Below, one piece after another: positions 30,325 through 50,446 of a stretch of 64,000 nucleotides of DNA; the stretch's first letter is position 1, and every line of letters starts with the position of its first letter. The notes beneath the pieces are model-generated. The model saw only the letters and a list, made by a program, of their open reading frames with translations. It made no database searches and was not told the origin of the DNA. Source of the DNA: Rhodospirillales bacterium (lineage in GTDB: Bacteria; Pseudomonadota; Alphaproteobacteria; Acetobacterales; Acetobacteraceae). The translations under genes were made by a program, and so were the position numbers. Location of the stretch: assembly GCA_025352565.1 (NCBI GenBank), contig JANXTF010000128.1, positions 60,819-124,818 on the forward strand, read 5' to 3'.

Positions 30325-31026
30325 TCAGTCCTTGCGTTTGTGCGGACGCGCCACGGGCGTCATCGGCGCGCCGACCATGCGAAGGATGAGCTGGGTCAAC
30401 TCCTCGGAGGTCTCCGCCAGCGTCAGCCGGCCATGTGGGCGATACCATACATAGGCCCAGCTTATCATGCCGCCGATCGCGAGTGCGGCCATCCGCGTGT
30501 CAGGCACGTTGAACTCGCCTCTCTCGACGCCTTCATCCAGCAGCGCCACCAGTTTGCGGTCGAACTCGCGTCGCATCTCGCTGATGCGGGTGAAATCGGC
30601 TGCGGTCAGGTTTTTTTCCTCACGCGAGAAAATGGCGATGTGACGCTGGCTGTGGAGCACGGCGGTCACGAAACGCTGCCCCACCTCGCGCAACCTGTCA
30701 CTGGGCGAACCTGGCAGCACCAGCACGCTCTCCAAGGCATCGAGCGCCGAGCCGATGCCGCGCGCGCATATCTCGGCCAGCAATTCCGCCTTCGACGTGA
30801 AATGCGCGTAGATGAACGGCTTGGTGACGCCCATCTGTTCCGCAACCGCGTCGAGCGACGTGTTCTCGTAGCCGCGCTCGTAGAATAACTCGACCGCGAC
30901 CGCTATCGTGCGCTCGCGCTTGAGGGCAGTGACTTCGTTTCGGATGCCCATGAAGCGGGAGGCACCTGCGGACACCATGGGCGTACTGCTTTCGGATTGT
31001 GAATTGGGTGTCTGGTCCAAAACCAT
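30325..31026 (-). CDS. TetR-family transcriptional regulator
   Basis: A 233-aa TetR regulator. The N-terminal HTH (about 36-82) includes AVELFYERGYENTSLDAVAEQMGVTKPFIYAHFTSKAEL spread over three helices; the rest is an all-alpha ligand-binding domain with FSREEKNL and IGGMISWAYVWYRP, like regulators of acyl-CoA and aromatic catabolism. It is the last gene of the ligase-cyclase-racemase-DUF35 operon (34 bases after DUF35). I infer that it binds the four TACT-N4-AGTA palindromes listed here and responds to a CoA thioester. The first ATG is used; later in-frame ATGs (residues 17 and 26) are possible. Confidence 0.88.
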   Translation of the reverse strand: MVLDQTPNSQSESSTPMVSAGASRFMGIRNEVTALKRERTIAVAVELFYERGYENTSLDAVAEQMGVTKPFIYAHFTSKAELLAEICARGIGSALDALESVLVLPGSPSDRLREVGQRFVTAVLHSQRHIAIFSREEKNLTAADFTRISEMRREFDRKLVALLDEGVERGEFNVPDTRMAALAIGGMISWAYVWYRPHGRLTLAETSEELTQLILRMVGAPMTPVARPHKRKD

Positions 31027-31060
31027 ACTTGTCGCCCGTCCGCAAGTGGTCGGAAGAAAT

Positions 31061-31522
31061 CTACCCGGCCGCTGTCGGTTCGAACCAGAAGTCGAGTACG
31101 TCGCCGATTCGCTTCTCCGCGAACTTCGTCATCACCCGCGTGCCGATACTCAGCTTTTTGGCCGCTTCCTTCGGGTCCGCGAGATCCACACCGCGGAAGA
31201 AGCCGCCGATCGCCGTATCGGCCCCGTCGAGCCGCACGTAACCGAACGCATAGGGGGGCGGCGGCAGGCCGTTAAATGCCTCGGACACGATGCTGAACGT
31301 CTCGATACGGCCACTTGGCCCGACCTCAACCCAATCGGTCGTGGGCTCCAGCGTCTGATCGGAGAAGGCGCGCGGCGGCACCAGCACGCGGCCGGATTTG
31401 GCATCCCGCTTGCCGTACAGCTTGGCGTGGTCACGGAGTTGGACAAAGAACCAGCTCGCGGTCTCCCCCAGGGCGTGCGTGTAGGTGATCTTCCACTCTT
31501 CCCGGCGCTTCAGCAATTCCAC
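31061..31522 (-). CDS. DUF35/OB-fold protein lacking the zinc-ribbon cysteines
   Basis: A 153-aa member of the DUF35 family, which pair with thiolase-like proteins as acyl-CoA binding subunits. The usual ribbon is C-x2-C-x10-C-x2-C followed by a GRVxxPPR motif; here SGRVLVPPRAFS is recognisable but the whole protein has no cysteine, so no zinc can be held that way. The OB fold (TFSIVSEAFNGLPPPPYAFGYVRLDG) is well conserved. The start is GTG at 31522 with GGGGAG eight bases upstream, inside the end of the 44-codon ORF. Confidence 0.8.
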   Translation of the reverse strand: MELLKRREEWKITYTHALGETASWFFVQLRDHAKLYGKRDAKSGRVLVPPRAFSDQTLEPTTDWVEVGPSGRIETFSIVSEAFNGLPPPPYAFGYVRLDGADTAIGGFFRGVDLADPKEAAKKLSIGTRVMTKFAEKRIGDVLDFWFEPTAAG

Positions 31523-31644
31523 GATCGTTCTCCCCGTTCCAAAGCTTCGACAATCATCGTTCCGAAGAACTGAGCGAACCGGTCCATGATCGGGACACAG
31601 GTGATCCAGGCTTTGGCTTTACCGGTTGTGACATTGGCGGTCAT
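31510..31644 (-). CDS. 44-codon ORF coupled to both neighbours
   Basis: A possible small protein of 44 aa ending in a Cys (RGERSWNC). Its ATG overlaps the stop of the preceding CaiB-type gene (ATGA) and its last 13 bases overlap the DUF35 start, the packing expected of a translated gene. The middle (ITCVPIMDRFAQFFGTMIVE) is hydrophobic and could be a short amphipathic helix. I do not recognise it. It might be a subunit, a leftover of a longer gene, or only a spacer that couples translation. Confidence 0.45.
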   Translation of the reverse strand: MTANVTTGKAKAWITCVPIMDRFAQFFGTMIVEALERGERSWNC

Positions 31645-32756
31645 GTCCGTCCCGCTGCCGTGGATTGCGGGAGAGCCGCGCGCAACGCCGCACGGGATTG
31701 GGGCGCCATGCCGTCGATGCGCGCGGGGAACAGCGCCTGCAATGCGCCATCTGGTGCCGCGCGCACCAGCATTCGGTGGCGGTGATGCGGCGAGGCGATT
31801 GCCTCCCCCAAATCGAGCACAGCACTCGTGCAACAATCGCCGCCGGCGAAGCGCGTCATGCAATCATCCAGCGTCATGGCGGCAATGGATGCCGCCACAT
31901 CGGCGATCAGCGCGGTCTGCGGCAGCGTCTCCGGCTGGCGCGCGATCCATTGCGGATGACCGGCGGCGGCGCAGAACGCGGCCCAGAATTTCGGCTCGAT
32001 GGCGCCGACCGCGATATGGCGGCCGTCGCTGGTGGCATAGACCTGGTAGTAGGCGGCACCACCATTCAGGTAGGTTTCGCGCGGGCGGGGAACGGTCCCG
32101 TTGGCGCCATGCTCGGCGATCTGAAACAACTGCAAGGGCATCGGCGCGTCGGCCAGCCCGATATCGATATCGCAGCCTTTGCCATCGGTCTCGCGCGCGC
32201 GCAGCGCACCGAGAATGGCGATCACCCCGAACAGCGAGCCGGACAGGTCGGCGATGGGCGGGTCATAGAACATTGGAGATTCCCGCCCGTTGCGATGCAG
32301 GACGCCGGAATTGGCGAGGTAGTTCGCGTCATGCCCCGCTGCCTGCGCCATCGGTCCCGACGCGCCGTAGCCGCTGAGCGAACACACGATGAGGCCTGGG
32401 TTGCGCTCACGCAAAACCGAAGGACCAAGCCCGAGGCGCTGCATGACGCCCGGGCGAAATCCCTCGATCAGCACATCGTAATCCGCGACGAGGTCGAGAA
32501 ACTCGGCGCGGATCGCGGGTATCTTGAGATCCATGCGGCGCACGGATTTGCCGGCGTTCACCGCTTCGTAGAAAACCGGGCGGTTTCGCGCGTCGCGGGG
32601 ACCCAACTGCGTCATGGTGTCGCCGGAAGGCGGCTCGATCTTGAGCACCTCGGCGCCCATGTCGGCAAGCAGCAGGCTCGCGAGCGGGCCGGGCAGGAAC
32701 GCCGATAGGTCCAGCACCCGCACGCCGCGCGCGAACTCGCGCAAACGCGAGATCAC
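31641..32756 (-). CDS. CaiB/BaiF-family protein, alpha-methylacyl-CoA racemase-like
   Basis: A 371-aa family III CoA-transferase fold protein. VLDLSAFLPGPLASLLLADMGAEVLKIE is the usual N-terminus. The segment AAGHDANYLANSGVL with His142 and the later Asp170 (PIADLSGSLFG) match the racemase subgroup, where a His/Asp pair abstracts the alpha proton of 2-methylacyl-CoA. A racemase would let both epimers of a branched acyl-CoA enter beta-oxidation. The GTG start at 32756 overlaps the cyclase stop (GTGA). Simple CoA transfer is the alternative. Confidence 0.82.
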   Translation of the reverse strand: MISRLREFARGVRVLDLSAFLPGPLASLLLADMGAEVLKIEPPSGDTMTQLGPRDARNRPVFYEAVNAGKSVRRMDLKIPAIRAEFLDLVADYDVLIEGFRPGVMQRLGLGPSVLRERNPGLIVCSLSGYGASGPMAQAAGHDANYLANSGVLHRNGRESPMFYDPPIADLSGSLFGVIAILGALRARETDGKGCDIDIGLADAPMPLQLFQIAEHGANGTVPRPRETYLNGGAAYYQVYATSDGRHIAVGAIEPKFWAAFCAAAGHPQWIARQPETLPQTALIADVAASIAAMTLDDCMTRFAGGDCCTSAVLDLGEAIASPHHRHRMLVRAAPDGALQALFPARIDGMAPQSRAALRAALPQSTAAGRT

Positions 32757-33628
32757 AGCACAGCCACCGGAGCGACCGGGCTGCCCGTGCCGCCGACAAT
32801 GGGCAGCGGCGCGGCGACGAACAGAAACGTCGTGGCGCCCGCCTCGCCCAATGCGCGAAGCACCATGCCTTCGAGCAAGGGGATGCCATAGTCGCGGATC
32901 AAGCGTTGATGAACCGGAAATACCGTGCCGGCCGGAAACGGCAGCACCTCAATTGCAAAATTATCGGCGCCCACGATCGCTACGCCGCTCTCCGCGAGCC
33001 ACAACGCCGCCTCGACGTCGATCCCCGGTTCGGCGTTGAAATCCACGCCGCGCGAAACATCCTGGCTTTCAAGCCAACCGGTCCGGATCAACACCGCATC
33101 GCCATCCCGCAACGTCACCCCCGCCGAGGCCGCGGCCTGTTGCAATTCCTCGCGGCCGATCGTGTCGCCCGGCTTGGCGGGTTCGCCGCGCAACCCCACC
33201 ACGTCGAGCAGCACGCCGCGCGTGACCAGCGGCGGCATCTTCTCGATTCCGCAGCGCAGGGCACGGGTGGTGCTGCGGACGGTGTTGCCTGGAAAGCCAT
33301 TATACAGATGGTCGTCGCACCAGGCGTGGCACAGCGCATCGACATGCGTGGCGAGATGCAGCGGCAGCACAACCGTGTCCTCGGCGAACTGAAATCCGCC
33401 CGGCCGCTTGGCGCCGGCCGCGTAGTCGCCGCCGTCCCGTCCCATGAAATGCAGCACGCCCGCCCGATGCCCTGGCACCGGCAAGCGATCGGAAATCGGC
33501 TGTGCCAGGCTGATGACCCGCCCGGTTTTTACCAACGCGGCAGCAAGCCTTACCTGTTCGGCCCCGATCAGGTTCGGCGCACCGACCTCGTCGTCCGCAC
33601 CCCAGCGGCCCCATGATTCCCGCGCCAT
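32753..33628 (-). CDS. Cyclase-family metal-dependent hydrolase
   Basis: A 291-aa protein of the cyclase/kynurenine-formamidase-like family (PF04199 type). The metal signature H-x3-H-x-D-x3-H is at 91-101 (HLATHVDALCH), and DGDAVLIRTGW and VGADNFAIEVLP are family blocks. It likely hydrolyses an amide, lactone or cyclic bond of the pathway substrate with a Zn or Mn ion. It lies three bases after the ligase gene and overlaps the racemase-like gene. The specific substrate is unknown. Confidence 0.85.
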   Translation of the reverse strand: MARESWGRWGADDEVGAPNLIGAEQVRLAAALVKTGRVISLAQPISDRLPVPGHRAGVLHFMGRDGGDYAAGAKRPGGFQFAEDTVVLPLHLATHVDALCHAWCDDHLYNGFPGNTVRSTTRALRCGIEKMPPLVTRGVLLDVVGLRGEPAKPGDTIGREELQQAAASAGVTLRDGDAVLIRTGWLESQDVSRGVDFNAEPGIDVEAALWLAESGVAIVGADNFAIEVLPFPAGTVFPVHQRLIRDYGIPLLEGMVLRALGEAGATTFLFVAAPLPIVGGTGSPVAPVAVL

Positions 33629-33631
33629 GCG

Positions 33632-35191
33632 TCAGGCCTCGGACATCAACCGTGCGGCCATCGTCTGCAACTCCCGCCGCATCAGCTTGCCCGTCGCGGT
33701 CGCCGGCAGCGCCTCCATGATCTCGAAGCGATCCGGCACCTTGTAGCCCGAGGCGATACTGCGGCAGTGCCGCGCCAACTCGTCCGGCGTGGGCGACGCA
33801 TCGCCGCGCAGCATCACGAACGCGACGATCGACTCGCCCTTGGCAGACGGCACGCCGACCACGCCGGCCTGCGCCACGGCCGGGTGCTGCATCAGGATAT
33901 CCTCGACCTCCGCCGGCGAGATGTTGATGCCCGCCCGCTTGATCATCTCCGTCGCGCGACCGAGGAACACGAAATCCCCGCCCGCCGCGATCGCCCCGAT
34001 ATCGCCCGTGCGATACCAGCCATCGGACGTGAAAGTGGCCGCGTTGTGATGCGCGCTGGCACCGACATAGCCCCGCATCACGTAGGGTCCGCGCACCTCG
34101 AGCAATCCCGGTTCGCCCGCGCCACGCACGTCGCCCGTCTCCTCATGCACGATCCGCAGTTCGACCCCGGGCAGCTTCTGTCCCTGACAGTTGGCGCGGC
34201 GTTCCAAAGGCCAGTCGTGCTGCGTGACGCAACAATTCCCTCCGGTTTCGCTCGATCCGTATATGTTGCAGATGTCCACGGCACCCAATATTTCGGCCGC
34301 CTTGATGACGTCCTGCGGGCTCCCGATCGTCATGCCGCGGCGCAGCGTCGCGGTGCGCTCGCGGCGGAACTCCGGATGGCGCACCATCGAGTCGGTCATG
34401 CCGGGCAGCGTGTAGATGGATGTGCACCCATGCTGTTCGATCAGGCGCAATGCCTCGCCTGCCTCGAAGCGCGCCTGCAACACCAGCGTCGCGCCATGAG
34501 TGAAGGTCGCCGGCATCGCGTTCACGCCGCCATAGGTCCAGAATAGCGGCGGCGACAAAAGCACCTTGTCGTCGGGACCAAGTCCCTGACGTTCGCCGAT
34601 GTTGAAGCTGTTCTCGATGATGAGGTAATGCGCCAGCGCGATGGCCTTGGGCTTGCTGCTGGAACCCGAGGTGTAAATGATGATCGCATCATCGGTGGCG
34701 CTGGCCCCCTCTCCTGGCGACAGCGTTCCGACGCCCGCGGCGTTGGAGAGCGCCGCCGCATACTGCGAAAGACCTTCGCCATCGTCGAGCAACAGCACGG
34801 TGCAGGCCGGCGCGATGTCGCGCAAAATCGCCGCGTAATCGACGCGGACAAAGGTGGAAAGAGCCACCAGCACCCGAATATCGGAATCCGCCAGCAGGTA
34901 TTCCAGTTCCTGGCGGGTGGACCATGTGCTCAGCGGCACCAGGACAGCGCCGAGCAACCACGCGCCAAACGCGACTTCCAGCCATTCGGCACGATTATTG
35001 ACCAGCAGACCAACCCGGTCGCCTCGCCCGATCCCGCGCTCCCGCAACAGCCCGGCGGCCTTGCGGGCGCTCGCGACAAGCTCGGCATAGGTGATGCTGC
35101 GCGTCCCGCAGATCACCGCGATGGCATCCCGATGGCCCTCCGCCTGCTCGGCAAGCAAATCGAACAGCGTGCGGCTGCAGGGCGCTTTCAT
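33632..35191 (-). CDS. AMP-forming acyl-CoA synthetase/ligase
   Basis: A 519-aa ANL-superfamily enzyme. The P-loop is IIIYTSGSSSKPKAIAL, the A5 motif IYGSSETGGN, A7 GWYRTGDIGAI, A8 GRATEMIKRAGINISPAEVE and the catalytic Lys is in TATGKLMRREL near the C-terminus. It should activate a carboxylic acid to an acyl-AMP and then to the CoA thioester, the entry step of the cluster. It is the first gene of the operon that ends with tetR, and its promoter region holds a TACT-N4-AGTA palindrome. Confidence 0.92.
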   Translation of the reverse strand: MKAPCSRTLFDLLAEQAEGHRDAIAVICGTRSITYAELVASARKAAGLLRERGIGRGDRVGLLVNNRAEWLEVAFGAWLLGAVLVPLSTWSTRQELEYLLADSDIRVLVALSTFVRVDYAAILRDIAPACTVLLLDDGEGLSQYAAALSNAAGVGTLSPGEGASATDDAIIIYTSGSSSKPKAIALAHYLIIENSFNIGERQGLGPDDKVLLSPPLFWTYGGVNAMPATFTHGATLVLQARFEAGEALRLIEQHGCTSIYTLPGMTDSMVRHPEFRRERTATLRRGMTIGSPQDVIKAAEILGAVDICNIYGSSETGGNCCVTQHDWPLERRANCQGQKLPGVELRIVHEETGDVRGAGEPGLLEVRGPYVMRGYVGASAHHNAATFTSDGWYRTGDIGAIAAGGDFVFLGRATEMIKRAGINISPAEVEDILMQHPAVAQAGVVGVPSAKGESIVAFVMLRGDASPTPDELARHCRSIASGYKVPDRFEIMEALPATATGKLMRRELQTMAARLMSEA

Positions 35192-35257
35192 TGCGAGGTA
35201 GCCCAGAGCTGCATATGTCCCCCCTCACGGCCAAAGCCCTGGCTGGCTTGCGCCAGC

Positions 35258-35269
35258 TACTAACCAGTA
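35258..35269. promoter_or_regulatory. Putative TetR operator 1 (TACTAACCAGTA)
   Basis: A palindrome TACT-N4-AGTA between the divergent ligase and thiolase-like genes. A perfect 6-bp hairpin (GCTGGC-TTGC-GCCAGC, 35242-35257) abuts it. On the minus strand a weak promoter, TTGCAC then 17 bases then GATACT, places the operator at the -10. The shared motif at three other cluster promoters makes this a likely binding site for the local TetR protein. Confidence 0.6.
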
Positions 35270-35343
35270 TCTTCCCATTCCGCCGGTTGTGCAAGCGCCG
35301 CGTGGCGCTTAGGGTGGCTCGCACCACAAAGAAGGCCGCGAAA

Positions 35344-36495
35344 ATGTCGCTGAAGGGAAACGGCGCGATCACTGGGATCGGGGAGACCGCCTATAGGCGC
35401 GCCTCGCCTTACACCGCGTTCGAAATGCAGATCGAGGCCTCGCTTGCGGCGATCCGCGATGCGGGGCTCGACCCGAAAGAGATCGACGGCATCATCCCGA
35501 TCGGCATCACCGGCGCGCCGGCCGAGGCGTTCGTGATGAACTTCGGCATCCCCGATCTGCGCTTTTCCGCATTGACGCCGATGGGAGGCGCCAGCGGCAT
35601 CGCCGCCGTGCAGTGCGCCATTGCCGCGATCGACGCCGGCATCTGCAATCACGTTCTGATCCCGGCTGGCCGTAACGTCTCGAGCGGTGCGCGCGCGGGT
35701 GTGCGCATCCACCAGATGCCCCAGTTTCATCTTGTAACGGAATACGAGTTGCCGCAGGGCGCCATTGCCCCGGCGCAGCTTTACGCTCCCATGGCGCGGC
35801 GGCACATGGAGCTCTATGGCACCACCAGCCGCCAGTTCGCGGAAATCGCGGTTGGCATCCGTGAACATGCTTTGCTGAACGACAACGCCGTGATGAAGAA
35901 GCCGATCACCATCGAGGACCATCAGGCCTCGCGCATGATCGCCGATCCGTTCCGCCTGCTCGATTGCAGCCTGGAGAGCGATGGCGGGGCGGCCCTCGTG
36001 GTCAGTTCGTCCAAGGCCGCGCGCGACATGCGCCAGCCGCGTGTGCGCGTGCTGGGCATCGGCGAGGGGCATCCAGATTCGCCGAGTTCGATCACGCAGC
36101 GCGCCGACATGACGAAGCTCGGCATCGCGAAATGCGCGCCCCGCGTGTTCGAGATGGCGGGCGTCAGTCACGCCGATATCGATGTGGCCGAGATCTATGA
36201 TTGCTTCACCTACATCGTGCTTTGCCAGCTGGAGGACATGGGGTTCTGCAAGAAGGGCGAGGGTGGCCCGTTCGTGGCCGACGGCAAGCTGCGACGCGGC
36301 GGTGCGCTGCCCACCAACACCCATGGCGGATTGCTGTCCCAGGCTCATATGTTGGGCATGAACCACATCGTGGAACTGGTGCGGCAACTTCGCCATCAAG
36401 GCGGGCGGGCGCAGGTGAGCGGCGCCGAGATCGGCCTCGTCACCGGATATGGCGACATGGGCGATGGCGCGATGGCCATCATGGGCCGGGGGTAA
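35344..36495 (+). CDS. Thiolase-like protein (lipid-transfer/Ltp2 type), nucleophilic Cys absent
   Basis: A 383-aa thiolase-superfamily protein. The region that in thiolases carries the acyl-accepting Cys reads TPMGGASGIAAVQCA, with no Cys in the GGAS position, as in the Ltp2 subgroup. VAEIYDCFTYIVLCQLEDMGFC and NTHGGLLSQAHMLGMNH are typical of that subgroup. Ltp2 proteins act as retro-aldolases on steroid side-chain CoA esters, together with a DUF35 partner. A DUF35 gene follows directly. I infer retro-aldol cleavage of a 3-hydroxyacyl-CoA, not thiolysis. AAGAAGG lies before the ATG at 35344. Confidence 0.83.
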   Translation: MSLKGNGAITGIGETAYRRASPYTAFEMQIEASLAAIRDAGLDPKEIDGIIPIGITGAPAEAFVMNFGIPDLRFSALTPMGGASGIAAVQCAIAAIDAGICNHVLIPAGRNVSSGARAGVRIHQMPQFHLVTEYELPQGAIAPAQLYAPMARRHMELYGTTSRQFAEIAVGIREHALLNDNAVMKKPITIEDHQASRMIADPFRLLDCSLESDGGAALVVSSSKAARDMRQPRVRVLGIGEGHPDSPSSITQRADMTKLGIAKCAPRVFEMAGVSHADIDVAEIYDCFTYIVLCQLEDMGFCKKGEGGPFVADGKLRRGGALPTNTHGGLLSQAHMLGMNHIVELVRQLRHQGGRAQVSGAEIGLVTGYGDMGDGAMAIMGRG

Positions 36496-36500
36496 CGACG

Positions 36501-36911
36501 ATGAGCAACGACGAAAAGCCGGTTCCACACGCAACACCGGAGTCGCAACCGTATTGGGACGGCGCCGCGGAAGGCAAATTACGTCTGCAACGCTGCGCCG
36601 CATGCGGGTTGGTGCGGCACTATCCGCAGCTGACATGCCCGAGTTGCTATTCGAGCGGCGTGGAATGGATCGATGCGAGCGGCAGGGGCGTGGTCCACAG
36701 TTGGACCGTCGCGCATCACGCGTTTCATCCGGCGTTCAAACAGGATTTGCCCTACACGCTGGTGACGGTCGATCTTGCCGAGGGACCACGCGCGCTGGGG
36801 CGGCTGGATAGCTTATCGCAGGACCGACTTCGGATCGGGCTGCCGGTTCAGATCTCATTTCCTCGAAACGGCCAGGGTGTGCCGTTGCCCGAGTTCACCG
36901 CCACAGCGTAG
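36501..36911 (+). CDS. DUF35 zinc-ribbon/OB-fold protein
   Basis: A 136-aa DUF35 protein with a complete zinc ribbon: Cys32, Cys35, Cys46 and Cys49 (CAACGLVRHYPQLTCPSC), then an OB fold (RGVVHSWTVAHHAFHPAFK). These proteins bind the acyl-CoA for a thiolase-like partner. It lies five bases after the thiolase-like gene and so is its likely subunit. It contrasts with the cysteine-free paralogue at 31.1-31.5 kb. It converges on the LLM gene with a 2-base gap. Confidence 0.88.
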   Translation: MSNDEKPVPHATPESQPYWDGAAEGKLRLQRCAACGLVRHYPQLTCPSCYSSGVEWIDASGRGVVHSWTVAHHAFHPAFKQDLPYTLVTVDLAEGPRALGRLDSLSQDRLRIGLPVQISFPRNGQGVPLPEFTATA

Positions 36912-36913
36912 GG

Positions 36914-38221
36914 CTATGCCATGTGCTCGCGCAACGTCGTGCCCGTGTATTCCCGGCGGAACACGCCACGCGCCTGCAACAACGGCACCACCTGATCCAC
37001 GAAATCGTGCACGCTGTTCGGGTTTGTGGTCGGGCTGAGGTTGAACCCGGCACAGCCCACTTCGCGCCAGATCGACTCGATCCGGTCGGCCACCTGCTCC
37101 GGCGTACCGATGATCTGCGGGATGGCGACCGACAGCGCCCAGCGTGACGCCGCCTCGCGCAACGTCACGGCTTTGCCGTCCGCGCTGCTTGCGGTCGCGG
37201 CCATCAGACCGCGCGAGGCTTGCGTGTCCATGTCGGCCAGCGCGTCATCGGGGTCGAACTGGCTGAGATCGTGGCCCAGCACGCCGGACAAACGGGCCAG
37301 GATGGCGTCAAGCGGAATGCGCGCGATCAGTTCGTCCGCGCGGCGCTGCGCCTGCTCCTCCGTGCCGCCGATAATCGGCTGCAAGCCGTAGAGGACGACC
37401 GGATCGTGCTTCAGCCCGGCATCGAGCGCCGCCTGCCGCAAGCCGGCGGTGGCTTTCTTCATGCCGGCGACATGCGCCTGAATGCCGAAGATGATTTCCG
37501 CGTGCTGCATCGCGAATTTCATGCCGCGGCCGGATGAGCCCGCCTGCATCAGCACCGGCCTTCCGTGCGGACCCGGCAGCACCGGCGCCACGGATTTGCA
37601 CTTCAAGTATTTACCCTGGAAATCGACCGGCTTCACGCGATCCGAATCGGCGAAGCGCGGCTTCCCGGCATCCATCTCCACCGCATCGGGCGGGATGCTG
37701 TCCCACAGCCGGTAGCAGATTTCCATGAACTCGTCGGCGTAGTCGTACCGCTCATCATGCGAGAAATCGAACGTCGAACCATTGGCAGCCCGCTCGGCTT
37801 CGCTGAACCCAGTTACGATGTTCCAACCGATGCGGCCGCGCGTGAGGTAGTCCAGCGTCGAGATGCGGCGGGTGGCGAGGTACGGCGTGGTGCCGGTCGT
37901 GGAAAGCGTCACGCCGAAGCCGAGCCGCTCCGTCGCCGCCGCCATGATCGCGACCAGCGGCATCGGGTCGTGGTTCGGCCAGGATGCGCCGTAGCGCACG
38001 GAGGCGTCGGTGCTGCCCTGGTACACGCCATGTGTCGCCGGGCTGTCGGCGAAGAACACCGCGTCGAAACAACCCCGTTCCAGCGTTTTTGCGAGGTCCT
38101 GCCAGTAGGCGAAATCACGCAGGCCAGCGAGTTGCCGGTCAGCCGGGTCCGCCCAACTCAGCAGCGTGTGTGTGCTGGCGCTGTGGATAAGCATCTGCAT
38201 GAGATGCATCTGGTCAGCCAT
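36914..38221 (-). CDS. Luciferase-like (LLM) flavin-dependent monooxygenase, NtaA/SnaA/DszA type
   Basis: A 435-aa bacterial-luciferase-like TIM barrel of the NtaA/SnaA/DszA group of two-component FMN monooxygenases. Family landmarks are ERGCFDAVFFADSPATHGVYQGS, RISTLDYLTRGRIGWNIVTG and SPTTNPNSVHDFVDQVVP. Such enzymes use reduced FMN and O2 to attack C-N, C-S or C-C bonds. No flavin reductase is adjacent. GGAG precedes the ATG. It is downstream of an orphan binding protein on the same strand. Confidence 0.9.
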   Translation of the reverse strand: MADQMHLMQMLIHSASTHTLLSWADPADRQLAGLRDFAYWQDLAKTLERGCFDAVFFADSPATHGVYQGSTDASVRYGASWPNHDPMPLVAIMAAATERLGFGVTLSTTGTTPYLATRRISTLDYLTRGRIGWNIVTGFSEAERAANGSTFDFSHDERYDYADEFMEICYRLWDSIPPDAVEMDAGKPRFADSDRVKPVDFQGKYLKCKSVAPVLPGPHGRPVLMQAGSSGRGMKFAMQHAEIIFGIQAHVAGMKKATAGLRQAALDAGLKHDPVVLYGLQPIIGGTEEQAQRRADELIARIPLDAILARLSGVLGHDLSQFDPDDALADMDTQASRGLMAATASSADGKAVTLREAASRWALSVAIPQIIGTPEQVADRIESIWREVGCAGFNLSPTTNPNSVHDFVDQVVPLLQARGVFRREYTGTTLREHMA

Positions 38222-38243
38222 GTCGGGTCACTCCGTCAGCGGA

Positions 38244-38309
38244 TCAACGATCGGACCCAGTCCTGGCGCGCGCAGGCGGGGCGGCGAGAAGCGTGCGACG
38301 CGTCGGCAT
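38244..38309 (-). pseudogene. 21-codon ORF resembling a Tat leader remnant
   Basis: ATG at 38309 with AGGAGAG upstream starts MPTRRTLLAAPPARARTGSDR and stops after 21 codons, 22 bases before the LLM gene. The start looks like the first part of a Tat signal peptide and no mature protein follows. It may be the leftover of a deleted binding-protein gene, or a short leader that aids LLM translation. The upstream ribosome site lies in a GCTCTC/GAGAGC hairpin (38316-38331). Confidence 0.3.
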
Positions 38310-38338
38310 GTCAGGCTCTCCTGAGAGAGCGGACTTCG

Positions 38339-39547: not shown

Positions 39548-39654
39548 TGTTCCGTTCCCTTCCCGCCTCTGGTCGATCGCTCACTGAGCTTCGACTGGGT
39601 CTTTATCGCTGGAACCCCATAAGGCACGTTCCGAAAGCGTCAGTCAAGTAAAGC

Positions 39655-39666
39655 TACTGGAGAGTA
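39655..39666. promoter_or_regulatory. Putative TetR operator 2 (TACTGGAGAGTA)
   Basis: A TACT-N4-AGTA palindrome in the 151-base gap between the CoA-transferase stop and the binding-protein start. An overlapping AGTA-AAGC-TACT pair begins at 39647. On the minus strand TTGACT (39647-39642) could be a -35 box for the binding-protein gene, immediately downstream of the operator. Confidence 0.55.
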
Positions 39667-42018: not shown

Positions 42019-42067
42019 CGAACGACACTCCTGAGATACGCGCGGATCGCTTCTGGCTCGCGCTTCC

Positions 42068-42079
42068 TACTTGCTAGTA
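42068..42079. promoter_or_regulatory. Putative TetR operator 3 (TACTTGCTAGTA)
   Basis: A TACT-N4-AGTA palindrome in the 119-base gap between the divergent acyl-CoA dehydrogenase and monooxygenase genes. TATGAT (42078-42083), which overlaps its right arm, could be the -10 box of the plus-strand monooxygenase promoter, so a bound repressor would block it directly. Confidence 0.62.
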
Positions 42080-42137
42080 TGATAGGGAACCGCCAAGAAT
42101 GCAACCGAGGGCGCGGCCCTCTACAAGGGGGAACACC

Positions 42138-43415: not shown

Positions 43416-43431
43416 TTTAGAACGAAGGCCA

Positions 43432-45081
43432 CTACACCCGCGGCGCGGACAGATAGGCCGGCGCGGGACCGATCGCGTGCATATCCACTTCCACCAGGCT
43501 CGGGCCGGGCACGGCCAGCGCGCGGGCGACGGTGGTGCCGAATTGGTCGGCCTGATCGACGCGGAACCCCGGCAGGCCGGCGAGTTCGGCCAGCCGCATG
43601 AGGTCCGGCCCCCGCAGGTCGCCATAGAAGCGGCGGCCGCCCGCCAGCGCGTCCTGCAAATGGCCGATGGCGGAATAGCGGCCGTCGTTCATGACGATGA
43701 TGCAGACCGGGGCCTGCTCCTGCACCGCCGTCCAGAGCTCGGTCATGCCGAGGGCGAACCCGCCATCGCCCGCCAGCATCAACGTCTTGCGGCCGGAAGC
43801 GCCCACGGCCAGCGCCGCGCCGATGCCGAAAGCCAAACCGGGGCCGATCGCGGCACCCACGGGATGGATCGCGTTGCGCGGGCCATGGACCGGGATCAGG
43901 CGATGGCCCCAGGTGTGGGTGGCGACGGTCGCGTCCCGCACCCAGATCGCGTCCCGGGGCATCACCGCGCGGAGTTGGGCGGGAAAATCGGCGTAGGGGC
44001 CGAGGCTGCGGCCGTATGCGAGACGCGCGCGGCTTCGGGCGTCGGCGAGGTCGTCGCCGAACGCCGGATCGACGGCGATGCGGCCTTGAAGCCTTTGGCG
44101 AAGGCCTTCGAGCGCGAGCGTCGCGTCGCCGCAGACGAACACCTCGGACGGGTATGTGCGGCCATTCGCGCGCGGGTCGATGTCGATCTGGATGAGCGGC
44201 CGGGGGAGCGCCAAGCGGTGATCCATCGTTTCGTGGCCGCGCAGGCGGGAGCCCACGACAAGCATTGCGTCCGCCGTGGCGTAGAACGCCTCGATATCGG
44301 GCGCGCCGTTGCCGTGCAGCGAACCCAGGGTGCGCGCATGATCGTCGTGCACAATGCCGCGCCCGTTCCACGAGTTCACGGCGCAAAAGCCGATGTCCAG
44401 CAGCCGCGTCGCCGCCGCGCCCGCCTCGCGCGCGCCGTTGCCAAGCCAAAGCATCGGACGGCGCGCACGCAGCAGAATTTCGGCGGCGGCGTCGAGCGCC
44501 TTGTCGGCGGGTGGCATCGGCGGGCGCAGCGGCAGCACGAGGCGATCGAGTTCGGCCGGACGATCCATCGCGGCGCGCTGCAGGTCGATCGGGATTTCGA
44601 CCGTGACGGGGCCGGTCGGGGCCGACAATGCGCAGGCGGCGGCGGCGCAAAGCGTGCCGAACGCGTCCTGCGTTGAGCGGATGCGGAACACGGCCTTGCA
44701 GACCGAGGCCAGCATCGCCGCCTGACCGGGCACGTCATGGACCGCCCCCATGTCGCGGTCCAGATAGGGGGTCGCGGTCTGCGACGTGAGGTGCAGAAGC
44801 GGGGAGCCCGCGAATTGCGCTTCCACCAAAGCGGGCACCGCATTGGCCGCTCCTGGCCCGGTGCTGGTGATAAGGACGCCCAGACCGCCGGTCACGCGGG
44901 CAAAGGCGTCGGCCATGTGGCCACCGCCGGTTTCCCCGCGGACGGGGATGAACCGGATGGCATTGCGACGGCCGATCGCGTCCAGCATTGGGATGTTGTG
45001 GATCGAGACGATGCCGAAGGCGGTGGCGACGCCGCACGCGGTCAGAAACTCCGCCACAAGATCGCCGACGGTGTAGGCCAT
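43432..45081 (-). CDS. Thiamine diphosphate-dependent enzyme, acetolactate synthase-like
   Basis: A 549-aa ThDP enzyme of the POX/AHAS superfamily. The cofactor-activating Glu50 is in PVRGETGGGHMADAFARV, and the ThDP/Mg motif is GDGGFALGMTELWTAVQ with the closing Asn in VMNDGRYS. Three domains are in the usual order. It may decarboxylate a 2-oxo acid or act on an acyl-CoA, as oxalyl- and 2-hydroxyacyl-CoA lyases do. It is the last gene of the operon that starts at 50.36 kb and begins five bases after the binding-protein gene. It converges on the FMO gene. Confidence 0.88.
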   Translation of the reverse strand: MAYTVGDLVAEFLTACGVATAFGIVSIHNIPMLDAIGRRNAIRFIPVRGETGGGHMADAFARVTGGLGVLITSTGPGAANAVPALVEAQFAGSPLLHLTSQTATPYLDRDMGAVHDVPGQAAMLASVCKAVFRIRSTQDAFGTLCAAAACALSAPTGPVTVEIPIDLQRAAMDRPAELDRLVLPLRPPMPPADKALDAAAEILLRARRPMLWLGNGAREAGAAATRLLDIGFCAVNSWNGRGIVHDDHARTLGSLHGNGAPDIEAFYATADAMLVVGSRLRGHETMDHRLALPRPLIQIDIDPRANGRTYPSEVFVCGDATLALEGLRQRLQGRIAVDPAFGDDLADARSRARLAYGRSLGPYADFPAQLRAVMPRDAIWVRDATVATHTWGHRLIPVHGPRNAIHPVGAAIGPGLAFGIGAALAVGASGRKTLMLAGDGGFALGMTELWTAVQEQAPVCIIVMNDGRYSAIGHLQDALAGGRRFYGDLRGPDLMRLAELAGLPGFRVDQADQFGTTVARALAVPGPSLVEVDMHAIGPAPAYLSAPRV

Positions 45082-45086
45082 GCGGG

Positions 45087-46325
45087 TCAGACCTTCACGA
45101 GCTTGCAGCCGCCTTCGGTGAGCGGCCTTGCCGCCTGCGCCGCCGGAAGCGTTCCCGCGATCGTGCAGAAATCCCAGTCGCCCCGGCTTTCGGATGGCTT
45201 CTTCACATGCAGCAACAGCATGTCGTGCAGCGCCATGCCGTCCTCGCGGATGGCACTCTGGCCAAACAGCGGGTCTTGCATCGGCGTTGCCTTCATCGCG
45301 CGCACCGTGGCGCGGCCATCGGCCTTCGCCGCTGGAACACCCAGCGCGGCGGCGACCTTGAGGTAGTGGAGCGCGCCGGCATAGGCGTTGGCGAAATTCT
45401 TGTTCGGGCGCTGATTCGGCACCAGCACGGCGAGGCGATCGGAGAAATTGCGCGTGGCGTCGTCGCGATCCCAATAGAAGGGGCTGGAAAAATAACTGCC
45501 TTGCGCGACTTCGAGCCCGATCGCGTGCAGCGTCGGCTCGCCCATGAAGGGGGCCGCCAGGATGCCGCCCGCCTTGGGCACGCCGAATTCATGGGCCTGC
45601 TTCATGCTCGTGGTCAGGTCATCGCCCGCGTTGGCGAGGCAGACGACTTTCGCGCCGCTGCTCTGGGCCTGGAGCAGCAGACTGGAGAAATCGGTGGTGC
45701 CGGGGAAGGCGTAGGTGACGGTTCCGAGCACCTTGCCGCCGGATTCGGTCACGGCCCGGCTCGCATCGCTCACCATGGATTTGCCGAGTTCGTAGTTGGG
45801 CATGATGAAGAACCAGCTATCGCCGCCCTGCCGCACGACCGCCTTCACCAGCGACGCCGCGAGGGCGTATGTGTCGGAGGCGAACTGCACATGGTTGGGC
45901 CCGCAGCTCCCGCGCGTCAGTTCGGACGTGGCCGCCGACGTGACCAACCCGACCTTGTTCTTCTCCTCGAGAACGGCACCCGCCGCGAGGGCCAGCGCCG
46001 ACATGGGAAAGTCGAGCACGGCATCCACGCCGTCGCGGTCGAGCCAGCCGCGCATGATGCTGAGGCCCACATCGGGCTTGAGCTGGAAGTCGGCGACCAC
46101 GAGGTCCACCCCGATGCCCGGGTGCAGCTTGTTGAAGTCCTCGATGGCCAGCTTGATCGAGCCAACGCTGCCTCTGCCCGTCAGTTCGGCGTAGGGGCCG
46201 TTCATGTCGGTAAGACAGCCGAGCTTGATGCGCTCGCCCGCGGCGTTCGCGCGCCCGATGAAGGGCATCGGCAACGCGGCCGCGGCAGTGGCTGCGAGAA
46301 GCGTGCGGCGTGAGACGAGAGGCAT
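45087..46325 (-). CDS. Orphan LivK-type ABC solute-binding protein (paralogue)
   Basis: A 412-aa type I binding protein with a Tat leader (MPLVSRRTLLAATAAAALPM). Mature segments IKLGCLTDMNGPYAELTGRG, QGGDSWFFIMPNYELGKSM and SGAKVVCLANAGDDL line up with the protein at 38.3-39.5 kb, so the two are paralogues. GAAGGGAAG lies before the ATG at 46325; an in-frame ATG at 46352 is less likely. No transporter subunits are nearby. It is within the operon between an enoyl-CoA hydratase and the ThDP enzyme. Confidence 0.88.
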   Translation of the reverse strand: MPLVSRRTLLAATAAAALPMPFIGRANAAGERIKLGCLTDMNGPYAELTGRGSVGSIKLAIEDFNKLHPGIGVDLVVADFQLKPDVGLSIMRGWLDRDGVDAVLDFPMSALALAAGAVLEEKNKVGLVTSAATSELTRGSCGPNHVQFASDTYALAASLVKAVVRQGGDSWFFIMPNYELGKSMVSDASRAVTESGGKVLGTVTYAFPGTTDFSSLLLQAQSSGAKVVCLANAGDDLTTSMKQAHEFGVPKAGGILAAPFMGEPTLHAIGLEVAQGSYFSSPFYWDRDDATRNFSDRLAVLVPNQRPNKNFANAYAGALHYLKVAAALGVPAAKADGRATVRAMKATPMQDPLFGQSAIREDGMALHDMLLLHVKKPSESRGDWDFCTIAGTLPAAQAARPLTEGGCKLVKV

Positions 46326-46363
46326 GGAATTCTTCCCTTCAGACGGTTTCATGGGCGCGATCC

Positions 46364-47128
46364 TCAGCGGCTTCGCCACACGGGCGGCCGGCGTTCGGCG
46401 AAGGCGGCAGCACCCTCGCGCGCATCCTCGGAGGCCAGCACAGGCCCGGTGATCTCCTGCTGGCGGGTGAACATGTCGGCGATGTCCCAGTCCCGCTGCT
46501 CGACGATCACGCGCTTGCTGGCGGCGATCGAAAGCGGCGCGTTGGCGAGGATGCGGCGGGCGAGGCGCCTGGCTTCCGCCAGGGCCTCGCCGGGCTCCGC
46601 CAGGGCGTTGATCAGGCCGTAACGCTCCAGGCGCTCGGCGCTCACCATGTCTCCGGTCAACGCCAGTTCCATCGCGATGCGCTGGGGAATGAGGCGCGGC
46701 AGACGCAGCAGGCCGCCGGCGGCGGCGGCGAGGCCGCGCCTGACTTCGGGCAAGCCAAATTGCGCGTTGCGCGCCGCCACCAGCAGGTCGCACGCGAGTG
46801 CCGCTTCGAAGCCGCCCGCCAGGGCGTAGCCCTCAACCGCGGCAATCAGCGGTTTTTTCGGCGGCGTCATCGCGATGCCGAGAATGCCCCTGCCCTCGAC
46901 GCGGGTGCTTTCGCCGCGCAGGAAGGCTTTGAGGTCCATGCCGGAACAGAAATTCCCGCCCGCGCCGGTGAGGATGCCGACGCGCAGGTCGTCGCGCGCA
47001 TCGAGTTCATCGACGGCCGCGCACACGCCGTACGACACCGCGCGGTTGACCGCGTTGCGCTGCGCGGGCCGGTTGATGGTGATGATGACGACACCGTCGT
47101 CATGTTCGACCAGAACCTCGTCGCTCAT
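46364..47128 (-). CDS. Enoyl-CoA hydratase/isomerase family protein
   Basis: A 254-aa crotonase-fold protein. The oxyanion segment NFCSGMDLKAF and both catalytic glutamates (LPEVRRGL and AMELALTGD) are present, so hydratase activity is expected. The start overlaps the preceding gene's stop as ATGA. Here the context, downstream of acyl-CoA ligase and dehydrogenase genes in the same regulon, supports a beta-oxidation-like role on the pathway acyl-CoA. Confidence 0.9.
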   Translation of the reverse strand: MSDEVLVEHDDGVVIITINRPAQRNAVNRAVSYGVCAAVDELDARDDLRVGILTGAGGNFCSGMDLKAFLRGESTRVEGRGILGIAMTPPKKPLIAAVEGYALAGGFEAALACDLLVAARNAQFGLPEVRRGLAAAAGGLLRLPRLIPQRIAMELALTGDMVSAERLERYGLINALAEPGEALAEARRLARRILANAPLSIAASKRVIVEQRDWDIADMFTRQQEITGPVLASEDAREGAAAFAERRPPVWRSR

Positions 47129-48246
47129 GCCCCTGCCCCCAAGTTGGCCATACGCTCCATGGCATCGAGATATTCGGTTTGCAGCCGCATCATCACCTCG
47201 CGCACCGAGGTTTCCTCGTTCACCGAGGTGACGGATTGTCCGACCGGGAACGAGTAGAGGTCGCGCCGTTCGGAACGGACGATGCGGGCGTGGATTTCGT
47301 TATAGAGAATGCCCTGCAGCGGGGTGGGCAGATAGCCGGGCGCGTCCGGCTTCTCCCAGGCCTCGGACATCCGGCTTCGCACCATTCGCACCGGCTTGCC
47401 GGTACGGACGCGGCTGCGCACGGTGTCCTCGGCGCGGGTGGCGAACAGCACGTTCTTCTCGAACGGCGTCAGTTCGCTCTCGCGCGTGCCGAGCCAGATG
47501 GTGCCGCACCAGACGCCTTGGGCACCCATCGCCAGCGCAGCCGCGATCTGGCTGCCGCGCGTTATGCCGCCGGCCGCCAGCACCGGCAGATCGGGGCACA
47601 CCTCCACCACCTGTGGCACCAGCACCAGGGTGGAGATATCGCCGGTGTGGCCGCCCGCCTCGGTGCCTTGCGCGATGATGAGTTGGACGCCCGCCGCGCG
47701 CTGGCGGACCGCGTGCGCGGCCTTGCCGCACAGGGCGCCGATCATCACGCCCGCCTGCCGCAACTCCGCCACCACATCGGGCGGCGGGGCGCCCAATGCG
47801 CTCACCACCAGCTTCACCTGGCTGTGGCGCAACGCGACCTTGAGCAGGCGGCGCGCGCCATCGGGCGTCATGTTGCCACGGCCTTCCACGATCTCGCGAT
47901 GCACGCGTCGGCGGTCATCGTCGGGTAGAGGCGGGACGCCGGCATCGGCCAGGATCGCTTCCATGAAGGCGAGATGGGCGCCAGGGATCAGCCGCTCCGG
48001 GTCGCCGACCTGTTCGGCCTCGCGGTCGTAGCTGCTCGGGATCAGCACATCGACGCCGTAGGGGCGGCCTGCGACATGCTCGTCGATCCAGCGCAATTCC
48101 TGCTCGAGCAATTCGGGAGCGAAGGTGGAGGCGCCCAGCACGCCGAAGCCGCCCGCCTTGGTGACTTCCACCACCACGTCGCGGCAATGCGAGAAGGCGA
48201 AGATCGGCACGTCGCAGCCGAGGGTATGGGCGATCGCCGTTCGCAT
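47125..48246 (-). CDS. Nitronate monooxygenase-like FMN protein
   Basis: A 373-aa TIM-barrel flavoprotein of the NMO/2-nitropropane dioxygenase family. The FMN-site blocks are QGTEAGGHTGDIST, VLAAGGITRGSQIAAALAMGAQGVW and the family's GTIWLGTRES. Many proteins of this family do not oxidise nitronates and some act as enoyl reductases, so the reaction is open. GAGGGAG precedes the ATG at 48246, one base after the ligase gene. It overlaps the downstream hydratase (ATGA). Confidence 0.87.
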   Translation of the reverse strand: MRTAIAHTLGCDVPIFAFSHCRDVVVEVTKAGGFGVLGASTFAPELLEQELRWIDEHVAGRPYGVDVLIPSSYDREAEQVGDPERLIPGAHLAFMEAILADAGVPPLPDDDRRRVHREIVEGRGNMTPDGARRLLKVALRHSQVKLVVSALGAPPPDVVAELRQAGVMIGALCGKAAHAVRQRAAGVQLIIAQGTEAGGHTGDISTLVLVPQVVEVCPDLPVLAAGGITRGSQIAAALAMGAQGVWCGTIWLGTRESELTPFEKNVLFATRAEDTVRSRVRTGKPVRMVRSRMSEAWEKPDAPGYLPTPLQGILYNEIHARIVRSERRDLYSFPVGQSVTSVNEETSVREVMMRLQTEYLDAMERMANLGAGA

Positions 48247-48247
48247 G

Positions 48248-50356
48248 TCAGGCTCCCTCGTTGATTTGTTCGTCGCGCCAGACACAAAGCGCGTCCAGCG
48301 CCTCGACCCGGTCGCCGCGCACCCAGAGCGGGTTCACATCCATCTCGACAAGGTCCGCGCCGAAGCCGAGCGCCGCATCGCCGATGCGCGCGACCGTTTC
48401 GCACACCGCATCGAGATTGCAAGGCGGCAGGCCGCGGCTGCCGGCCAGCAGCTTCGCGCCGCGCAGGCTCGCCAGCATCCGCCGCACCTCGGCGGGATGC
48501 ACCGGGAGCAGGCAGAGTGCGACATCGTGCAGGATCTCGACCCAGATGCCGCCCAGGCCCACCGCCAGTACCGGGCCCCATTGGGCGTCGCGCGAGACGC
48601 CCACGAACAACTCGACGCCCTGCTCGCGCATGGCGGCCACCAGCACGCCATCGATCGCCGCATTCGGCGCGTGACGCCGCACGGATTCGGTGATGCGGCG
48701 CCACCCGTCTCGCACGGCGGCCTCGCCATCCAGACCGAGGGCGACGCCGCCGATGTCGCTCTTGTGGGCAATATCGGCGGACGCGATCTTCAGCACCACC
48801 GCGCCGCCCAACGCCCGCGCGGCGGCGACCGCGTCGTCCACGGTGCGGGCAAGCGTCATCGTCACCACCGGAACGCCGTTCGCGGCGAGGCATTGCAGTG
48901 CGGCATGTTCCGTTCGTGGGCGTTCGGAGATCGCGGGCGGCGCGATCGGCGCCGCCGGCCGCGGGCGCCGCATCCCCTCGGACCACCGCATCACCCCCGA
49001 CAGCCCGGTCAGCGCGCGGTCCAGGCCGCAGGCGAGGTAGGGCAAGGCGGTTTCGCTTACGATGCGGCGGGACAGGTCGGTGAGGTGCGTCGCGGTGTAG
49101 CTGACGACGAAACCAGGCACGTCCGCATAGGTGAGGCTTTGGGCCAGCGCGGTGTGGAGGTCGGTGAGGCGCTCGCTGATGTCCGCCTCGGTCGTCGGCA
49201 CCTCGTAGTACGGGACAAGCATCGCGGCGATGCCCGGCTGCGCGGCCAGGATGCCGACGGCGGCACCGCATTGCGCGGGCGTGATGGCGCCGGTCAGGTC
49301 GAGCGGATTATGCGGGGTCGCGAAGCCGGGGATGGTGGCGCGAAGCGCGTCGGCGGCGGCTTCGGTCAGCGCCGGGAGCGTCATGCCGCGCGCCTCGGCC
49401 GTGTCGGCGGCGATCTCGCAGATGCCGCCGGAGTTGGAGACGATGCCCAGCCCCCCCGCCCGCAAAACGCCGGTGCTGGCGGCGATATCCGCGGTGGCCA
49501 GCAAATCCTCGATGTTGCGCGCGCGGATGGCGCCGAACTGGCGGCAGATGCCGTCGAACACGCGGTCGTCGCCGACCAGGGCGCCGGTATGCGCCAAAGC
49601 GGATTTCGCCGTCACCTCGGTGGCGCCGACCTTGAGCACCACGACCGGCTTGCCCGCCTCGCGTGCCGCATCGAGCGCGGCGAGGAACGCCGGCGGGTCG
49701 CGCACCGTCTCGATGAACAGCGCGAAGGCGCGGGTCGCCGGGTTCGCCACGAGCGCCTGCATGAAGGCGGCGCAATCGAGGTCGGCCTCGTTGCCGGTGG
49801 CGATGACGTGGCTGAGGCCGACATCCTGCTGGGCGCCCAGCGTGGCCAGAAAAAACGCGGTGGCACCGCTCTGGGATATGATCGCCACGCCGCTGGCCTG
49901 GCTGGGGCGCCGCACGGGCGTGGTCCAGACCGGCACGCCATCGGCGAAGTTGATGAAGCCGAGGCTGTTCGGCCCGAGCAGGCGGATACCGAACGCGCGG
50001 GCGACCTCGGCAAGCTGGCTTTGCAACGCAACGCCCTCGGCACCCGTCTCGGCGAAACCGGAGGTGAGCACCACGGCCGATCGCGCGCCGGCGGCGCCGA
50101 GGTCCCGCAGCGCCTCGATCACCGCCTCGCCAGGGACAAGGATGACGCCGAGATCGACCGGGGCTCCGATCGCGGCGCAACTGACCGACGCAAGTTGGCC
50201 ATGGACCATGAAGCCGCGCCGATTGACCAGATGAACCGCGCCCGTGAAGCCGGCGGTGGTGAGGTTGTCGAACGCGGTGCGAGACCAGCGCGAGCGGTCG
50301 GAAGCGCCGATAATGGCGATCGAGCGCGGGCGCAGCAGATCCTGGGCCTGATTCAA
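48248..50356 (-). CDS. ADP-forming acyl-CoA synthetase family protein
   Basis: A 702-aa protein of the NDP-forming acyl-CoA synthetase type. The CoA-binding domain begins SIAIIGASDRS, the ligase domain has LGPNSLGF and the phospho-His loop KSALAHTGALVGDD, and the C-terminal third is an ATP-grasp domain (LKIASADIAHKSDIGGVALGL). It interconverts acyl-CoA and acid with ADP/ATP. I chose TTG 50356 because upstream in-frame codons would pass through the putative promoter and operator. That TTG overlaps the stop of a 7-codon ORF that has a strong ribosome site. Confidence 0.84.
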   Translation of the reverse strand: MNQAQDLLRPRSIAIIGASDRSRWSRTAFDNLTTAGFTGAVHLVNRRGFMVHGQLASVSCAAIGAPVDLGVILVPGEAVIEALRDLGAAGARSAVVLTSGFAETGAEGVALQSQLAEVARAFGIRLLGPNSLGFINFADGVPVWTTPVRRPSQASGVAIISQSGATAFFLATLGAQQDVGLSHVIATGNEADLDCAAFMQALVANPATRAFALFIETVRDPPAFLAALDAAREAGKPVVVLKVGATEVTAKSALAHTGALVGDDRVFDGICRQFGAIRARNIEDLLATADIAASTGVLRAGGLGIVSNSGGICEIAADTAEARGMTLPALTEAAADALRATIPGFATPHNPLDLTGAITPAQCGAAVGILAAQPGIAAMLVPYYEVPTTEADISERLTDLHTALAQSLTYADVPGFVVSYTATHLTDLSRRIVSETALPYLACGLDRALTGLSGVMRWSEGMRRPRPAAPIAPPAISERPRTEHAALQCLAANGVPVVTMTLARTVDDAVAAARALGGAVVLKIASADIAHKSDIGGVALGLDGEAAVRDGWRRITESVRRHAPNAAIDGVLVAAMREQGVELFVGVSRDAQWGPVLAVGLGGIWVEILHDVALCLLPVHPAEVRRMLASLRGAKLLAGSRGLPPCNLDAVCETVARIGDAALGFGADLVEMDVNPLWVRGDRVEALDALCVWRDEQINEGA

Positions 50357-50376
50357 CCGACGATGCCGCGAAGCAT
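50353..50376 (-). CDS. 7-codon leader ORF before the ADP-forming ligase
   Basis: ATG CTT CGC GGC ATC GTC GGT TGA, encoding MLRGIVG. It has GGGAGGGAAGGGAG upstream and its stop overlaps the TTG start of the ligase (TTGA). It would bring ribosomes to a start that lacks its own ribosome site. A one-base sequencing or real frameshift that joins MLRGIVG to the ligase is the alternative. Confidence 0.35.
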   Translation of the reverse strand: MLRGIVG

Positions 50377-50417
50377 GACCGCGCTCCCTTCCCTCCCGGT
50401 CTGCGCCGGACGGATAG

Positions 50418-50446
50418 GTAGTATTAGTTACTGGTAAGAATGGCAA
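50418..50446 (-). promoter_or_regulatory. Possible promoter of the ligase-NMO-hydratase-SBP-ThDP operon
   Basis: On the minus strand TTGCCA (50446-50441), 17 bases, then TACTAC (50423-50418). The putative TetR site fills the spacer, the classic place for a repressor to block RNA polymerase. The -10 is a poor match. Confidence 0.35.
50429..50440. promoter_or_regulatory. Putative TetR operator 4 (TACTGGTAAGAA)
   Basis: Matches TACT-N4-AGTA with one mismatch in the right arm (AGAA). On the other strand it reads TTCTTACCAGTA and shares ACCAGTA with operator 1. It lies between the proposed -35 and -10 of the five-gene operon. Confidence 0.5.

Follow-up and report, generated by a model that had tools for sequence, protein, structure and literature searches.

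A TetR-family regulator encoded at 30325-31026 of the window (the whole 64-kb stretch of DNA analyzed) probably binds the palindrome TACT-N4-AGTA at promoters of a co-conserved set of uptake, flavin-monooxygenase and acyl-CoA genes and represses them; from sequence comparison, we assign this reading a probability of about 0.8. The comparisons support well both a conserved regulon wider than 20 kb and the pairing of its operator with this TetR. A TetR dimer on the operator would exclude RNA polymerase from the promoter, and the genes would be off until a predicted acyl-CoA breakdown product appears. The regulon groups many enzymes annotated without a substrate in Acetobacteraceae and in relatives in Hyphomicrobiales and Sphingomonadales, and its 12-bp motif is a handle for finding further members, testing the regulator and seeking the substrate via inducer screens. 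A shared operator on several contigs also lets separated pathway genes be reunited from sequence alone.

Operators, genes and promoters in the window

The exact pattern TACTN4AGTA (TACTNNNNAGTA) was found in the window at 35258, 39655 and 42068 only (Table 1), against an expectation of 0 from 100 dinucleotide shuffles. Allowing one mismatch yielded a single extra site, at 50429; because shuffled sequences average 1.03 such sites, this one is by itself within chance. The first-pass annotation had listed these four sites and placed them in intergenic promoter regions. All were recovered where claimed and all lie between genes, the one at 50429 on the condition that the synthetase starts inside its first-TTG open reading frame (ORF). 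As the synthetase domain begins at residue 41, the true start is likely within that ORF, after operator 4. The TetR gene was confirmed as the last gene of an operon with a site, namely the ligase operon, and from this position the regulator likely limits its own synthesis.

Counterparts of the window sites were found in relatives. SBP1 is also preceded by an operator site in the same-genus genome G010 and in G372. For operator 3, a site or variant precedes the dehydrogenase in G010, G372 and L099, and precedes the FMO in G108, G107, G035 and L100. For operator 4, synthetase promoters of two relatives were examined: in Mesorhizobium J18 (L157) a site carrying this very mismatch is present (P = 0.005), and in L078 there is no site.

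Table 1. Operators, likely promoter elements and genes of the block (window coordinates).
Feature	Position	Strand	Evidence or remark
TetR-family regulator (TetR_N + TetR_C_24)	30325-31026	-	Pfam; last gene of ligase operon
OB-fold (ChsH2-type) thiolase partner	31061-31522	-	Pfam PF01796, E 3.4e-9
Family III CoA-transferase	31641-32756	-	Pfam
PF04199 cyclase/hydrolase	32753-33628	-	Pfam
Acyl-CoA ligase (AMP-forming)	33632-35191	-	Pfam; first gene of tetR operon
Operator 1	35258-35269		TACTAACCAGTA; exact match; between acyl-CoA ligase (start 35191, -) and thiolase (ATG 35344, +)
Likely -10 (GATACT), ligase promoter	35266-35271	-	Ends in operator half-site
Likely -35 (TTGCAC), ligase promoter	35289-35294	-	17-nt spacer to likely -10
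SCP2/lipid-transfer-type thiolase	35344-36495	+	
ORF with zf-ChsH2/OB-fold thiolase partner	36201-36911	+	Domains at residues 119-220; true start later
Luciferase-like FMN monooxygenase (LLM), NtaA/DmoA family	36914-38221	-	TIGR03860 over cut-off
SBP1, branched-chain-type substrate-binding protein	38339-39547	-	Pfam
Operator 2	39655-39666		TACTGGAGAGTA; exact match; upstream of SBP1-LLM operon (SBP1 start 39547, -)
Family III CoA-transferase b	39699-40874	-	Pfam
Acyl-CoA dehydrogenase	40852-42018	-	Pfam
Operator 3	42068-42079		TACTTGCTAGTA; exact match; between acyl-CoA dehydrogenase (start 42018, -) and FMO (+)
Likely -35 (TTGCAT), dehydrogenase promoter	42099-42104	-	17-nt spacer to CATACT; operator alignment
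Flavin-containing monooxygenase (FMO) ORF	42099-43415	+	Pfam; start more likely at the second in-frame ATG, near 42138
Downstream synthetase-operon genes: nitronate-monooxygenase-like, enoyl-CoA hydratase, substrate-binding protein, ThDP enzyme	43432-48285	-	Pfam
ADP-forming acyl-CoA synthetase ORF	48248-50446	-	Pfam; domain begins at residue 41
Operator 4, one mismatch	50429-50440		TACTGGTAAGAA; upstream of ADP-forming acyl-CoA synthetase operon (-)

In total the block holds two family III CoA-transferases and two branched-chain-type substrate-binding proteins. The best PDB match of the LLM was dimethyl-sulfide monooxygenase. Cyclohexanedione hydrolase was considered for the ThDP enzyme but found no support, being absent among the best 60 of 69 PDB matches. 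An adjoining block at 24806-30282 carries radical SAM/SPASM, DHDPS-family, NMT1-type binding protein and ABC transporter genes.

To describe promoter geometry, 41 unique sites were aligned; note that these promoters are partly related and hence do not represent independent events. In 18 of the 41, a TTG is found exactly 25 nt upstream of the initial T of TACT, versus 1 of 41 on the mirror side, and the other positions from -30 to -20 have TTG in 0 to 3 sites. Of those 18 sites, 17 have an A before TACT/TACC, and 17 have CTTG as the element. The natural reading of the alignment is that CTTGCA-N17-nATACT is a -35/-10 pair, with the operator covering the 3' part of the -10 and the start region. 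A plain sigma-70 consensus scan gave 0 promoter-like matches at all four window sites, so the -35/-10 assignment rests on comparison. The first-pass annotation had described one site as overlapping a possible -10 and another as filling the spacer between a possible -35 and -10. By alignment, a -10 overlap stands at 35258 (ligase) and at 42068 (dehydrogenase), but the plain scan lent the assignment no support. In ligase-type promoters the operator likely overlaps the -10 hexamer, which is more specific than what was first stated. Because the upstream half-site TACT is likely the end of the -10 box nATACT, repression would occur by occlusion.

The same overlap of TACT with a -10-like nATACT at a fixed distance from TTG, present in 18 of the 41 sites, would also fit an inverted-repeat core promoter element (an extended -10 region) kept for polymerase, with no operator involved. 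We consider this very improbable, since the downstream half AGTA is conserved too and polymerase does not require it. In addition, TTG at -25 is missing in 23 of the 41 sites (including this genome's own FMO, SBP1 and synthetase sites), two sites lie upstream of a CTTGAC element, and the palindrome occurs in 0 of 10 ligase promoters of genomes without a close TetR.

The two sites just mentioned belong to the SBP1 promoters of this genome and of G372, where the operator lies 5-6 nt upstream of CTTGAC. With a site upstream of the -35, the TetR could bind its sites and act as an activator or dual regulator at SBP1-type promoters. This is unlikely: the geometry is limited to one promoter type, SBP1 of G010 has the site with CTTGAC absent, and TetR-family members are mostly repressors, which is the typical role of the family.

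Sites beyond the block and cluster layout in relatives

Across the 4.5-Mb draft genome, the exact pattern occurs 6 times versus 10 times for a reversed control pattern, and with up to one mismatch 42 times versus 346. The bare exact count therefore shows no excess over the control, and the non-randomness lies in position, as three of the six exact sites are packed into 7 kb near this TetR. The genome scan thus bore out the concentration of sites in this block but not an excess in their number. Because the assembly is a draft in 164 contigs, contig order gives no distances from off-window sites to the block; the window reaches the end of its contig about 22 kb past operator 3.

The remaining exact sites lie on contigs C74, C78 and C162. 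The first is flanked by a substrate-binding protein and a flavin monooxygenase of the FMO/BVMO type, the second precedes a substrate-binding protein in line with a phenylacetone-monooxygenase-like BVMO, and the third is 286 nt upstream of a thiolase pair. Judging from sequence, the operons on all three contigs likely belong to the regulon. The first-pass annotation had proposed a regulon of about 20 kb; the sites of the block stood, but confinement to it did not, given these three likely members.

Outside the window there are 35 one-mismatch sites, and of the 20 examined a crude predictor placed 9 within ORFs and 11 not. Site C16:4714 (L203; TACTGATAGGTA), flagged as inside a predicted ORF, precedes by 33 bp a second ThDP enzyme that shares 75% identity with that of the window; the ThDP gene of G372 likewise has a variant site. 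Sites C11:47337 (L202) and C150:97189 (L218) adjoin further branched-chain-type substrate-binding proteins. C78:4976, also inspected, has no TTG at -25. Among the one-mismatch sites examined, C16:4714 and perhaps C11:47337 and C150:97189 look like members, and the C16 operon possibly belongs to the regulon.

Clusters of relatives were then compared. In G010, the ligase, PF04199, CoA-transferase, C162-type thiolase pair and TetR genes form one run, and the dehydrogenase and SBP1 are preceded by exact sites. A single contig of G108 carries the ligase, thiolase, LLM, substrate-binding protein, CoA-transferase, dehydrogenase and FMO together with homologues of both off-window monooxygenases, and it holds six of the seven exact sites of that genome. 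The predictor placed three of these six inside ORFs; two of the three calls probably stem from its starting ORFs at the first possible codon, and site C17:27716 lies within an FMO coding stretch. A 38-kb stretch of G372 contains six TACYN4RGTA sites, close to where the dehydrogenase-tetR, SBP1, ligase, TctC, ThDP and BVMO-side units begin; among the matches listed for that genome, 2 of 2 exact sites and 4 of 6 TACY/RGTA variants fall within these 38 kb around tetR. Because relatives have the thiolase pair and both monooxygenases within the TetR cluster, the regulon exceeds the 20-kb block.

Taking these observations together, we lean, if only somewhat given the draft state of the genome, toward a broader proposal: an undescribed alphaproteobacterial regulon with the composite promoter-operator CTTGCA-N17-nATACTNNNNAGTA, in which the operator would have traveled with thiolase and Baeyer-Villiger monooxygenase operons that left an ancestral cluster, so that one TetR would control a dispersed oxygenolytic acyl-CoA pathway. 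In the window, a 118-bp gap at 31522-31641 marks the place where G010 and others hold a thioA-thioB pair; here that pair is on C162 with its own operator, and the OB-fold partner remains in the window.

Co-occurrence of the operator with the regulator

Exact sites were counted in 18 genomes whose TetR is 56-100% identical: of 56 in total, 26 fall near tetR (within about 40 kb, the spans being set by hand), where 0.61 were expected. Ligase promoters were scored with a matrix derived from this genome's six sites only, after one locus without a ligase start was dropped. Of the tested relatives whose TetR is 65-79% identical, 6 of 6 had the site (P = 0.002 each), versus 0 of 10 genomes carrying a ligase without a close TetR (lowest P, 0.16). 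TetR content was checked in all ten of the latter and in G372; eight of the ten have only a 46-52% identical TetR and two have none. In one of the six relatives, G026 (L077, C366), the TetR frame (71% identical) is broken by a stop and the operator of the ligase promoter is kept.

For a second set, the scoring matrix combined this genome, G010 and G108, and gene starts came from tblastn. At ligases at least 51% identical, the site was present in 9 of 9 distinct genomes (P = 0.03 or better; 10 rows, L109 and L157 being one genome, and G035 and G107 being common to both sets); at ligases of about 30% identity (9 rows), a weaker site was present in 2. Genes internal to the operon gave no score of at least 8 (cyclase, 11 rows; thioA, 8; thioB, 8; OB gene, 9), with P = 0.03 for thioA row L100. 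The CoA-transferase is an exception, with a site 60 nt upstream in 3 of 13 rows, these being three near-identical Sphingomonadales loci. Of the 8 FMO promoter rows, only 3 had a strong site, and the 23 tetR rows gave one weak site. Where tetR has a separate promoter, weak or variant sites lie up to 52 nt upstream of the matched start in L099, L104, L107 and L108; a loose pattern matched 4 of 20 upstream stretches of tetR, of which only L104 and L108 resemble sites.

Some loci with a TetR were negative. L101-L103 (Roseomonas/Falsiroseomonas; TetR 63-65% identical) lack any site within 10 kb and contain no exact site genome-wide, and L097, L105 and L112 have no convincing site near tetR. A census of all 256 half-sites over whole loci gave 9 TACT palindromes versus 1.5 expected (19 loci), with GC-rich palindromes swamping the census. 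Note that the ORF predictor, which was trained on this window, failed at the low-GC loci L104, L110, L111 and L115, so noncoding calls are inflated there. A plasmid search returned only distant ligases (37-41%) and TetRs (39-56%). Orthologous promoters in several orders carry conserved sites. The pairing with the 30325 TetR, proposed when the sites were first listed, is supported by the 26 of 56 sites near tetR and by the 6 of 6 versus 0 of 10 ligase promoters, but three Roseomonas-type genomes, with a TetR and no site, do not fit it.

The operator could instead serve another regulator, either a TetR paralogue group of 44-53% identity or a TetR-like ORF, judged by eye and distinct from the 30325 TetR, close to the C78 site; the 30325 TetR would then be in the cluster by chance. 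Genomes with only a 44-53% identical TetR (n = 18) do show an excess, with 94 exact sites versus 26 in those without (n = 17) and ratios to control of 0.35 versus 0.11, so the motif may extend beyond this clade. Moreover, the segment of the recognition helix is nearly identical between the close-TetR and 44-53% groups, and the crude predictor called 17 of 20 examined sites noncoding (of 25 in four paralogue genomes). However, no TetR of the 44-53% group is present in this genome, where the only other match at E 1e-20 is 30% identical, and none of the 8 paralogue-only genomes has the site at the ligase promoter. No other regulator family was found in 20 otherwise unassigned ORFs (16 from the G372 cluster and 4 from the G108 cluster) among the best 25 of 29 families. 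Control by another regulator is therefore judged unlikely, though the least improbable of the alternatives, and binding by the 30325 TetR is retained. A sister regulon sharing the operator in the paralogue genomes is possible from these counts. Site neighbors in those genomes (L179-L198) include thiolases, luciferase-like and flavin monooxygenases, and amidohydrolases.

The TetR protein and known systems

The 30325 TetR matches PF00440 TetR_N (E 1.3e-16, 60.5 bits versus a cut-off of 24) and PF17932 TetR_C_24 (E 1.4e-32). Its AlphaFold2 model (pLDDT 86.7) has nine helices, and TetR folds were the best matches. None of the NCBIfam equivalogs among the 17 families matched was over its cut-off (SACE_7040, 56.8/250 bits; FadR, 45.5/200; KstR, 22.9/280). 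The TetR/AcrR trait of a palindrome at own and target promoters appears in the conserved sites, the regulator's own gene lying downstream of operator 1.

KstR2 of Mycobacterium, a TetR repressor of a CoA-dependent catabolic regulon, is among the close folds (about 22-23% identity), and "cholesterol catabolism regulator" is the label on 8 of the best 120 homologues. The targets of KstR2 are steroid ring-degradation genes, none of which was found among the genes scanned here. KstR2 responds to HIP-CoA (PMC8700777, available in part). AibR is also a close fold, with isovaleryl-CoA as its ligand according to the PDB title. Because these two close folds are acyl-CoA-responsive, an acyl-CoA inducer, likely one made by the pathway, is predicted for this TetR by analogy and with low confidence.

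The literature search yielded no paper describing the TACTN4AGTA motif with a TetR. Its sole match to the motif letters was a longer, unrelated LysX palindrome of Desulfovibrio, which was set aside (PMC545781, available in part), and the available part of a Proteobacteria regulon survey (PMC5343134) names no such TetR. EdcR of Caenibius tardaugens, an alphaproteobacterial TetR repressor, has a proposed operator over the -10 box that contains TAC...GTA, and its cluster includes acetyl-CoA acyltransferase and enoyl-CoA hydratase genes. However, it has a TetR_C_11 rather than a TetR_C_24 domain, the TAC and GTA halves of its palindrome TACnAnTnGTA are separated by one base fewer than here, and its inducers are free estrogens (all for EdcR from the available part of PMC8700777). 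BkaR of Mycobacterium is an autoregulated TetR with palindromes at its own and at separate acyl-CoA-type operons, but both its operator, GTTA(N)T(N4)A(N)TAAC, and its lineage differ (PMC3920632, available in part).

The nearest solved fold is PfmR/TTHB023 (PDB 3vpr; Foldseek E 1.4e-10, 30% identity). The available text of PMC7022988 gives its measured operator as (a/c)Y(g/t)A(A/C)YGryCR(g/t)T(c/a)R(g/t), with sites at promoters of fatty-acid genes. PfmR is from Thermus thermophilus, of another phylum, with a 16-bp operator having GACC-type halves and with other target genes. By that published formula, the central 12 letters of the PfmR operator are compatible with the perfect form TACTGATCAGTA, which occurs in G108 and in a Mesorhizobium; many actual sites deviate from it in N4.
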